From Catenulispora sp. MAP5-51 (GTDB lineage: Bacteria > Actinomycetota > Actinomycetes > Streptomycetales > Catenulisporaceae): a DNA stretch of 64,000 nucleotides. Below are positions 26,408 to 29,115 of the stretch, piece by piece (positions within the stretch are counted from its first letter, which is position 1; each line of letters starts with the position of its first letter). The stretch is taken from contig NZ_JBGCCH010000029.1 of assembly GCF_041261205.1 (NCBI RefSeq), positions 62,001 to 126,000 of the forward strand, read 5' to 3'. The notes under the pieces are model-generated. The model searched no databases and had not been told where the DNA came from. It saw only the letters and a program-made list of their open reading frames with translations. The translations under genes and the position numbers were made by a program.

Positions 26408-26950
26408 ATGACCGAGCCTCTGAGACTGCACGTGATCCAAGGCGGCCGCACCGATCAGCCGGCAAAGCGCGCTCAGCCGCGGAAGCCCGAGCAGCCGGCT
26501 AAGCCCGAGCAGTCGGCAAAGCCCGAGCAGCCCGCGAAGCCGGAGCCGCTGTGGCGCGAGGTGCTGGGCGAGCAGTTGCGTGAGCTGCGGCGGCAGCATC
26601 GGGAGAGCCTGGCCGAGACGGCCGGCCGGGCCGGGATCTCGCCGCAGTACCTCTCGGAGGTGGAACGCGGGCTCAAGGAACCGTCGAGCGAGATGATCGC
26701 GGCGGTCGCCGGCGCGCTCGGGACGACGCTCGGCGGGCTCGCCGAGTCGGTGGCCTTCGATCTGCGGGCGCGGCGGGAAGCGGCGCTGGTGGCGACGCGG
26801 CAGGCCTGGGTGGCGCGGCGGGATCTGGCTGCACATCAGGATCTGGCTGCACATCAGGATCTGGCGGCGCGGCAGGATCTGGCTGTGCGGCGGACGTCGG
26901 CGACGCGCCGCTCGGCGGGCGGGCCGGTGATGCTGGCGCTGGCTGCCTGA
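26408..26950 (+). CDS. XRE-family regulator, PopR/ClgR-like
   Basis: A 180-residue protein with a central XRE HTH (residues 55-115; LRRQHRESLAETAGRAGISPQYLSEVERG, shown in part) as in ClgR and PopR, activators of clp genes in Streptomyces. It lies next to a clpP pair. The last residues are MLALAA; in PopR and ClgR two C-terminal alanines are needed for degradation by ClpP (established for the family), so the same feedback is likely here. The N-terminal arm holds a Lys-Pro-Glu-Gln repeat and the C-terminal arm a DLAAHQ repeat, both encoded by 18-nt tandem repeats. Confidence 0.82.
   Translation: MTEPLRLHVIQGGRTDQPAKRAQPRKPEQPAKPEQSAKPEQPAKPEPLWREVLGEQLRELRRQHRESLAETAGRAGISPQYLSEVERGLKEPSSEMIAAVAGALGTTLGGLAESVAFDLRARREAALVATRQAWVARRDLAAHQDLAAHQDLAARQDLAVRRTSATRRSAGGPVMLALAA
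26481..26892 (+). repeat. Two sets of 18-nt tandem repeats in the PopR-like gene
   Basis: Set one (about 26481-26547) repeats AAGCCCGAGCAGCCGGCT three times and encodes K-P-E-Q-P-A. Set two (26822-26893) repeats GATCTGGCTGCACATCAG four times and encodes D-L-A-A-H-Q. Both flank the HTH and keep the frame. Confidence 0.85.
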
Positions 26951-27107: not shown

Positions 27108-27713
27108 CTACTCCCGAGGCCCCAGCACATGGTCGGCGAGCCCGTACTCCACCGCTGCGGCGGCTGTGAAGACGCGGTCGCGGTCGGTGTCGTGGCGGAG
27201 GCGTTCGGCGGTCTGGCCGGTGTGGCGGGTCAGGATCGTCTCGAGTTCGGCGCGCATGCGGACCAGTTCGTCGGCCTGGATGATCAGGTCGGGGATGGCG
27301 CCTTGGCCGCGGGCGGCTGGTTGGTGCAGGACCACGCGGGCGTGGGGGAGGACTGAGCGCAGGCCCGGGGTGCCGGCGGCGAGGAGGACCGCGCCGACGG
27401 CGATTGCCTGGCCGACGCAGGTGGTGCGGATCGGGGCCTTGATGTGCTGCATGGTGTCGTAGACCGCGAGCATCGAGGTGAGGTCGCCGCCTTCGCAGTT
27501 CACGTAGAGGCTGATCTCGCGGTCGGGGCCGTCGGATTCCAGGTGCAGGAGTTGGGCGATGAGGGCGTTGGCCACGCCGGCGTCGATGGCCGTGCCCAGG
27601 TAGATGATGCGCTCGGTGAGCAGGTGCGAGTAGATGTCGGTGACGCGCTCGCCGCCGGGACGCTGGGTGGTCACGTAGGGGATGGTGTAGTTCATGGTGG
27701 CCGCCGTGTTCAT
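27108..27713 (-). CDS. ClpP-like subunit with catalytic Ser replaced by Ala
   Basis: A 201-residue ClpP-fold protein. Where active ClpP has the nucleophile in GQAASxxA, this protein has GQAIAVGA (A105). His (LPHARVVLH, H130) and Asp (RHDTDRD, D175) of the triad remain. The oxyanion loop is also altered: CEGGD instead of SPGGS. It should not cleave peptides by itself but can still form rings with the neighbouring ClpP, like ClpR or other non-catalytic Clp subunits. The ATG overlaps the stop of the active clpP by 4 bases, giving equal expression. The base sequence GGCCAGGCAATCGCC was read on the minus strand to confirm the change. Confidence 0.88.
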   Translation of the reverse strand: MNTAATMNYTIPYVTTQRPGGERVTDIYSHLLTERIIYLGTAIDAGVANALIAQLLHLESDGPDREISLYVNCEGGDLTSMLAVYDTMQHIKAPIRTTCVGQAIAVGAVLLAAGTPGLRSVLPHARVVLHQPAARGQGAIPDLIIQADELVRMRAELETILTRHTGQTAERLRHDTDRDRVFTAAAAVEYGLADHVLGPRE

Positions 27714-28315
27714 GCCGAGATCCCGATCCGCCGGCGTTCGGGCACGACCTGTCCGAACGAGTCCACGATGTGGTCGATGAAGCCGTAGTCCTTCGCCTGC
27801 TGGGCGGTGAACCAGCGGTCGTGCAGGGAGTCCTCGAAGATCCGGTCGTAGGGCTGGGCGGTGTCCGCGGCGATCAGGCCGAGCACGGTGTTCACCATGT
27901 GCCGCAGGTCGTCGGCCTGCACCTCGACGTCCACCGCCGTGCCCCCGATGCCGGCCGAGCCCTGGTGCATCAGGATCCTGGCATGCGGCAGGGCGAAGCG
28001 GCGGCCGTGCGTGCCGGCCGAGAGCAGGAACTGGCCGGCGCTGCACGCCAGCCCCAGCGCCAGCGTCGAGACCTCGCACGGCACCAGGCGCATCACGTCG
28101 CGGATGGCCAGCATCGCCGGGACCGAGCCGCCGGGGGAGTGGATCCACAGCGAGATCCCGGCCTCCGGGTCCTCGGTGGCCAGGGACAGCAGCTGGGTGG
28201 CCAGCAGCGTCCCGTTGTCGTCGTCGAGCACGCCGTCCAGGACCAGGATCCGCCGGCTGAACAGCTGCTCACGGGTGCGCCAACTGAAGTGGGGCGTCTT
28301 TTCTTCTTCTGCCAT
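27710..28315 (-). CDS. clpP: ATP-dependent Clp protease proteolytic subunit
   Basis: A 201-residue ClpP with all three catalytic residues: S92 (LACSAGQFLL), H117 (LPHARILMHQ) and D162 (FEDSLHDRWFT), and the SPGGS oxyanion loop. The ATG at 28315 follows GGAGG closely; a GTG 21 bases upstream is possible. No long propeptide is evident. It is first in a two-gene operon with the Ser-to-Ala subunit and lies convergent with a PopR-like activator. The pair resembles the clpP3-clpP4 arrangement of Streptomyces. Confidence 0.92.
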   Translation of the reverse strand: MAEEEKTPHFSWRTREQLFSRRILVLDGVLDDDNGTLLATQLLSLATEDPEAGISLWIHSPGGSVPAMLAIRDVMRLVPCEVSTLALGLACSAGQFLLSAGTHGRRFALPHARILMHQGSAGIGGTAVDVEVQADDLRHMVNTVLGLIAADTAQPYDRIFEDSLHDRWFTAQQAKDYGFIDHIVDSFGQVVPERRRIGISA

Positions 28316-28323
28316 GCCTCCAC

Positions 28324-28335
28324 CGTGCCCCGGCA
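28324..28335. promoter_or_regulatory. Candidate PopR-type operator upstream of clpP
   Basis: GTGCC-CC-GGCAC is a perfect 12-bp palindrome in the region just before clpP. The PopR site reported for Streptomyces is, from memory, TCTGCC-N3-GGCAGA, with the same TGCC/GGCA core but a 3-base spacer. The match is suggestive only. Confidence 0.3.
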
Positions 28336-28359
28336 CAGGAGGGCAAGGAACGCCGCGCT

Positions 28360-28383
28360 GCTGTGGGCGGATCAGCCCACAGC
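28360..28383 (-). terminator. Terminator of the nrdAB operon
   Basis: GCTGTGGGC and GCCCACAGC form a perfect 9-bp stem with a GGATCA loop, four bases after the stop of the BtuF-like gene, separating it from clpP. Confidence 0.65.
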
Positions 28384-28386
28384 GGA

Positions 28387-29115
28387 TCAGCTGACAGCAG
28401 CGGCGAGCTGGCGGAGCAGTACGCGGGGGGCCTCGACGAGCGAGGGCCCGTACCAGGTGAGATGCCGGCCGGAGACCAGGGCGGACGGCAGTCCCGGGAA
28501 CGCTTCGGGGCCGTCAGCGGCGCTGAACGCATACGGCTCATCGGGCAGCACGACAAGCTCGGCGCCGCCGGCCAACAGATCGGGCAGTGGGATCTTCGGG
28601 TAGCGCTCGGGATGGTCGGCATAGATGTTCCGCACACCGAGCCGCGCCAGCACGTCACCGGCGAACGTGTCGCGCCCCAGCACCATCCAAGGCCGCCGCC
28701 AGATGGGGACGAACGATGGGACAGGCGGTGGCGTCGGCCCCAGCTCCGTCGCCACCGCCCACGCGGCCTCCGCCTCGTCCAGCCACCGCGGCCGGGCGAG
28801 CCCACATCCATCGGTCAGCATCCGATCCAGCTCGCCGAATGCCTCGTCGAGCGTCCGGATCCGGGTCAGCAGAACCGCGATCCCGGCCTCGCGCAACGCA
28901 GCGAGATCGACCTCCCGGTTCTCCTCCTCGTTCGCCACCACCAGATCCGGGGCCAGCGCGATGATCCGCTCGACATCAGGGTTCTTCGTCCCGCCGATCC
29001 GCTCGACATCCAGCTCGGCCGGATGCGTGCACCACGCCGTCGCCCCGACCAGTAGCCCCGGCGCCGTCGTCGCGATCGCCTCGGTCAACGACGGCACCAG
29101 GGACACCACGCGCAT
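28387..29115 (-). CDS. Cytoplasmic BtuF-like metal/corrinoid-binding protein
   Basis: A 242-residue protein of the periplasmic-binding-protein fold joined by a long helix (helical backbone metal receptor; BtuF/FecB type): VVSLVPSLTEAI start, GGTKNPDVERIIALAPDLVVANEEEN, and a C-terminal AELVVLPDEPYAF segment. Unlike true BtuF it has no signal peptide or lipobox, so it should stay in the cytoplasm. It starts 17 bases after nrdB and is therefore under the cobalamin riboswitch. A role in sensing or holding cobalamin or iron for ribonucleotide reduction is an inference. Confidence 0.8.
   Translation of the reverse strand: MRVVSLVPSLTEAIATTAPGLLVGATAWCTHPAELDVERIGGTKNPDVERIIALAPDLVVANEEENREVDLAALREAGIAVLLTRIRTLDEAFGELDRMLTDGCGLARPRWLDEAEAAWAVATELGPTPPPVPSFVPIWRRPWMVLGRDTFAGDVLARLGVRNIYADHPERYPKIPLPDLLAGGAELVVLPDEPYAFSAADGPEAFPGLPSALVSGRHLTWYGPSLVEAPRVLLRQLAAAVS

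Follow-up and report, generated by a model that had tools for sequence, protein, structure and literature searches.

Introduction

Clp protease subunits without a working active site are textbook components of plastids and cyanobacteria. ClpR of these lineages is a ClpP-fold subunit with no working triad that stands beside a catalytic partner; by description it has no catalytic triad, and it shares its ring with ClpP3 in alternation (PMC4673316). Listeria monocytogenes likewise has a two-ClpP core with one naturally altered triad: its ClpP1 has an asparagine for the catalytic aspartate and becomes active when paired (PMC9765437). In Mycobacterium and Streptomyces, a two-gene operon encodes ClpP1 and ClpP2. 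In Streptomyces hawaiiensis, ClpP1 is responsible for all proteolysis, and the ATPase docks on ClpP2; activity is undiminished with ClpP2 S131A and abolished with ClpP1 S113A (PMC9765437).

Streptomyces also carries a second pair, clpP3clpP4. According to PMC9765437, the S. lividans pair is expressed only on failure of ClpP1P2, PopR being degraded by ClpP1P2, and work cited there indicates that viability requires at least one of clpP1clpP2 and clpP3clpP4. The S. lividans PopR site is given as TCTGCC-3N-GGCGAATCTGCC-3N-GGCAGA in PMC9775585.

The clpP3-clpP4 pair of Catenulispora

The 64 kb stretch of DNA analyzed here (the window), from the soil actinomycete Catenulispora, contains a bicistronic pair of clpP genes (Table 1). 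clpP3 comes first, and its stop codon shares an ATGA with the start codon of clpP4; the ATG at 28315 is the preferred start of clpP3, with a GTG at 28336 also possible. Both proteins match the Pfam profile PF00574 (E 4e-52 for ClpP3, 5e-65 for ClpP4), and ClpP3 is nearest by sequence to mycobacterial ClpP1. A genome-wide count separates this pair from the housekeeping clpP1clpP2: the 10.9 Mb draft genome holds four clpP genes, as two pairs on different contigs, and the housekeeping pair adjoins a ClpX-type gene and has both triads intact. No dedicated ATPase gene adjoins clpP3-clpP4; the five ClpB_D2-small matches in the genome all lie on other contigs, one of them next to the housekeeping pair.

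Table 1. Features of the clpP3-clpP4 locus, in window positions
Feature	Position	Strand	Details
popR-like HTH activator gene	26408..26950	+	convergent with clpP4; protein ends ...MLALAA, an ssrA-like degron
clpP4, non-catalytic ClpP subunit, 201 aa	27108..27713	-	ATG at 27713, stop codon 27110-27108; seen in the sequence, conserved in genus and relatives
clpP3, catalytic ClpP subunit	27710..28336	-	Ser-His-Asp intact: Ser in GLACS, His in MHQG, Asp in SLHD
Three degenerate PopR-type boxes, CTGCY-N3-RGCAG	28358..28400	-	15-bp period; at -85 (28400-28388), -70 (28385-28373) and -55 (28370-28358) from the clpP3 ATG; 1-2 mismatches each

The Ser-His-Asp triad of the window ClpP4 is incomplete, reading A105-H130-D179. 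Alignment to solved ClpPs places Ala105, within the motif G101-Q-A-I-A105-V-G, in the catalytic serine column and finds no alternative serine in catalytic register, while H130 (in VVLHQP) and D179 (in DTDRDR) are retained. The loop C73-E-G-G-D77 is also altered, with NCEGGD in place of the usual ClpP NSPGGx (Pro to Glu, Ser to Asp). C73 was rejected as a stand-in nucleophile; Mycolicibacterium has a serine there, but the column is not catalytic.

Both the alanine, encoded by GCC or GCG, and the CEGGD loop are present in ClpP4 of every one of the ten genomes that represent the genus; the alanine recurs in about 90 further pairs, nearly all of the roughly 100 related ones. Across the pairs compared, clpP4 has a dN/dS of about 0.04-0.21 (Nei-Gojobori; dS is near saturation for distant pairs), similar to that of clpP3. 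A missing catalytic residue could mean that clpP4 is degenerating as a pseudogene or that a base was miscalled. The first is refuted by this conservation, an intact frame and a dN/dS far below 1, and the second is excluded because the alanine codon is common to all ten genomes, leaving this reading with practically no probability. The window clpP4 encodes a conserved protein under purifying selection and does not reflect a private change. The original prediction, of an intact clpP whose stop overlaps the start of a second clpP with GQAIA, an alanine as nucleophile, His and Asp remaining and the oxyanion loop changed to CEGGD, holds on each point; neither a sequencing error at the GCC codon nor another serine in the active position accounts for the change.

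A predicted ClpP4 model (mean pLDDT 80.6, residues 1-27 poorly predicted) confirms the ClpP fold and carries no information on rings. Its nearest structure is M. tuberculosis ClpP2 (TM 0.81-0.82, 54% identity in the fold match), and ClpP2-type chains of S. hawaiiensis are only slightly more distant. On a tree that included no ClpR, window ClpP4 groups with actinobacterial ClpP2/ClpP4 sequences. It scores 160.9 bits against NCBIfam NF009204, which we take to be the ClpR model, where the cut-off is 263. Window ClpP4 would be ClpR-like in effect, though apparently not by descent, and the functional parallel to ClpR drawn originally is supported in that a silent subunit stands beside an intact partner. 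Unlike in ClpR, only the serine is gone, and a separate ring would be expected. Unlike Listeria ClpP1, a subunit with an alanine nucleophile should not become active by pairing. The pair also has a likeness to the ClpP1P2 operons, ClpP4 resembling ClpP2 and ClpP3 resembling ClpP1, but in every genome checked the triads of ClpP1 and ClpP2 are both complete.

A PopR-like regulator gene and PopR-type boxes

The PopR-like protein matches the ClgR model with an E value of 2e-14, but falls below the model cut-off. A tandem peptide repeat (DLAAHQDLAAHQDLAARQDLAV) precedes its LALAA tail (26810-26900), a region in which its relatives are shorter. A popR-like homologue is present in 172 of 197 clpP3-clpP4 loci, some of them redundant, and is convergent with clpP4 in all 172; 141 of these homologues have the LAA tail and most others end in xAA. 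Several of the 25 loci without the gene end early, but six Kribbella loci do not: no popR-like gene was detected within ~3 kb of pairs L091, L093, L094, L096, L110 and L113. PopR-like boxes are still present upstream of clpP3 in L094 and L110.

One-mismatch sites of the box motif number 48 in the window, so lone near-matches are common by chance, and the argument for the boxes therefore rests on a register common to sister genomes. At the same 15-bp spacing, one box is exact in the sisters L011 and L013, and both are exact in Nocardia L043; positions in the window's clade are typically -70 and -55. Across the loci, YTGCY-N3-RGCAR occurs at 4.5 per kb upstream of clpP3 versus 0.05 elsewhere, an enrichment of about 90-fold. 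The S. lividans PopR site has the same 15-bp spacing as the window boxes. In addition, the window boxes make up a perfect inverted repeat, GCTGTGGGC-N6-GCCCACAGC (28361-28384), which lies just past the upstream gene and could double as a terminator.

Because a convergent, LAA-ended regulator and boxes spaced at 15 bp accompany it, the window pair is assigned as the clpP3-clpP4 of a PopR-type backup operon, and this predicted system is found well beyond Streptomyces. The ClpP3/P4-type identity originally proposed is borne out by the regulator gene and the boxes. The PopR-controlled operon of Streptomyces has the same gene order and a convergent popR ending in LAA, is likewise second to a housekeeping clpP1clpP2, and has its clpP3 preceded by two CTGCC-N3-GGCAG-type boxes at a spacing of 15 bp, comparable to that in the window. 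However, Streptomyces ClpP4 keeps the serine, has a glycine for the catalytic histidine and has a normal SPGGS loop, whereas the pair in the window comes from a different clade, marked by Ala and CEGGD in ClpP4 and by LHD in ClpP3.

Catalytic state of ClpP4 across actinobacteria

A class-wide set and a scan of genome contigs yielded 176 distinct actinobacterial clpP3-clpP4 pairs. ClpP3 has an intact triad in all 176 and ClpP4 in 33, proportions that describe a sample weighted towards Nocardia and relatives of the query and do not equal frequencies in nature. ClpP4 reads AHD in 94 pairs and has the Streptomyces-type triad in others (SGD in 18, SGE in 1); the rest are GHD (8), GHE (2), WHT/WHD (4), SHN/SHS/SHH (6), EHH/EHN (4), and SAE, GND, ADD, SDD, AQD and AHE once each. 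Serine is replaced by Ala, Gly, Trp or Glu and histidine by Gly, Ala, Gln or Asp, and the aspartate is also lost. As controls, the housekeeping subunits of 30 matched genomes are intact in 28/28 cases for ClpP1 and 30/30 for ClpP2. Whether a non-catalytic subunit occurs in actinomycete ClpP3/P4 pairs had been left as a question; among the pairs sampled it is the rule. The suggested comparison with Streptomyces gives a different picture there, as ClpP4 is broken elsewhere, with the catalytic histidine changed to glycine in all Streptomyces examined.

Members of the CEGGD clade have Ala as nucleophile residue in 93 sequences, Gly in 6 and Ser in 5. The catalytic His persists in 102/104 and the Asp in 104/104 despite the loss of serine, and for this reason the two residues probably keep a structural role. 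The five serine-bearing members (Kribbella L091, L093 and L094, Nocardia jejuensis L088 and Microbacterium halotolerans L118) all use TCG and retain the CEGGD/CDGGD loop; they are apparent dead-to-alive reversals or cases of neutral toggling, and silence would therefore not be strictly required. Kribbella has both Ala (K. antiqua) and Ser (K. rubisoli) at this position, with codons one base apart. The ring-ring contact motif of ClpP3 in the window's clade reads LHD (rarely LRD) where others have DRD, and HSPGGS replaces NSPGGS, changes that coincide with the acidic loop of ClpP4.

Repeated loss and probable horizontal transfer

On the concatenated ClpP3+ClpP4 tree, the fewest switches between intact and broken ClpP4 number 10 (26 for the full state), and a ClpP3-only tree, which is immune to bias from ClpP4 sites, gives 11 (again 26); shuffled labels need 22-26 switches versus the 10-11 observed. 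Many forks are weakly supported, and the counts of losses and switches depend on these trees. Because intact ClpP4 sequences are basal when the tree is rooted with housekeeping ClpP1, the switches can be read as about seven ClpP4 losses and three serine regains. Histidine was lost in the Streptomyces group and in L175, and aspartate in L199 and in family f21 with L198, where some members later changed Ser to Glu; the other three losses belong to the GHD, WHD/AQD and CEGGD clades. The three Ala-to-Ser regains all lie inside the CEGGD clade. The acidic CEGGD loop has a single origin on the tree, with the clade that holds the window pair.

In the tree, the pair of the window is nested within Nocardia (support 100*), and a second genus from the family of the window organism (G013) carries a Streptomyces-like pair with His to Ala and Asp to Glu. 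Both observations speak against vertical orthology with the Streptomyces pair, and because of them Catenulispora probably received clpP3-clpP4 from a Nocardia-like donor.

Proposed function and alternative explanations

From sequence we infer the ring composition, docking, activity, benefit of silence and regulation in the window species. The explanation that we prefer, at a probability of about 0.75, is that ClpP4 makes up a pseudoprotease ring on which the ATPase docks and which holds ClpP3, with ClpP3 doing all the cutting in a PopR-switched backup core. ClpP4 retains its fold, the axial-loop sequence at its N-terminus and, for the most part, a surface like that of ClpP2, but lacks a nucleophile. 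It would most likely assemble into a single heptameric ring; this ring would recruit ClpX/ClpC, keep the ClpP3 ring stacked on it active and extended, and shape the chamber. All seven working active sites would come from ClpP3. When housekeeping ClpP1P2 fails, the LAA-tailed activator would no longer be degraded and would bind the boxes and turn on the operon. A silent docking ClpP4 with an active ClpP3 ring is suggested because S. hawaiiensis ClpP2 docks the ATPase and yet has a dispensable active site; by this analogy, the state engineered in that ClpP2 is the one that evolution would have fixed in window ClpP4. That a core with a broken ClpP4 would work is suggested by S. lividans, as the pair with a histidine-less Streptomyces ClpP4 can keep cells viable in place of ClpP1P2. 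The pattern of loss, repeated in ClpP4 and absent from ClpP3, suggests machines with one cutting and one non-cutting ring. Assigning the docking ring from hydrophobic-pocket residues is not decisive: the position of E. coli F82 is His in window ClpP4 and Leu in ClpP3, and because these residues are not clean, which ring docks is uncertain.

Judged by homology to ClpP1P2 of Mycobacterium and Streptomyces, an all-ClpP3 ring on an all-ClpP4 ring is likelier than an alternating one, and so than the mixed ring originally suggested. Mixed heptamers would also be compatible with silent subunits and a coupled operon; these would be heptamers in which ClpP3 and ClpP4 alternate and every ring has live and silent sites, as in cyanobacterial rings of three ClpP3 and four ClpR (PMC4673316). 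This arrangement is unlikely, since both genes are closest to subunits that form separate homoheptameric rings (PMC4673316) and the sequences hold no evidence for alternation. Even less probable is a ClpP4 that serves not as a docking ring but as a dominant inhibitory or regulatory subunit, dampening ClpP3 or poisoning ClpP1P2; another extra ClpP of S. hawaiiensis, ClpP-ADEP, does disrupt ADEP-activated ClpP1 complexes (PMC12607617), but the S. lividans pair, whose ClpP4 lacks the histidine, sustains essential proteolysis according to work cited in PMC9765437.

The cause of serine loss is a separate matter, and a reading by relaxed constraint alone, to which we give slightly less than an even chance, is compatible with the pseudoprotease ring. 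Dispensable docking-ring sites would decay neutrally in a rarely expressed backup pair, and silence would bring no advantage. The harmless S131A change in S. hawaiiensis ClpP2 (PMC9765437), the different residues affected in each lineage and the single base between Ala and Ser within Kribbella are all consistent with such decay. However, serine loss is nearly fixed in the CEGGD clade while His and Asp persist, the rest of ClpP4 is under strong purifying selection, and housekeeping ClpP2 stays intact (30/30) although its serine is equally dispensable in vitro. Selection for silencing, by repeated conversion through Ser, His or Asp into machines with one active ring and altered product size or substrate choice, followed by an Ala-to-Ser return in a few lineages, is a more tentative and somewhat doubtful proposal. 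If true, the nucleophile would have returned by a single codon change in three Kribbella species, N. jejuensis and M. halotolerans. Restoring the ClpR active site in cyanobacteria made the core no faster (PMC4673316), a result that leaves room for both drift and selection.

Significance and related paralogues

In the literature searched, to which the original clpP3/clpP4 papers (Viala 2000; Bellier 2004) did not belong, we found no report of a non-catalytic actinobacterial ClpP4, no discussion of the catalytic state of Streptomyces ClpP4 and no biochemistry on any ClpP3P4 pair; the histidine loss in Streptomyces may have been remarked on earlier. Dead ClpP-fold subunits are already known from ClpR, and it is the repeated, paralogue-specific loss that looks new. 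Clp is a drug target in Actinobacteria, and inhibitors of the catalytic serine are predicted to act on the backup core only through ClpP3. Streptomyces ClpP4 is probably inactive as well. Natural pairs of differing state make the role of a silent ClpP ring directly testable.

In several Streptomyces genomes, ClpP5-type paralogues also include members with broken triads (L216, L217, L220, L221, L223, L224 and L225), which read AHD, SQT, SQL, SSD, PRG and GRD, alongside intact ones (L214, L215, L218 and L222).
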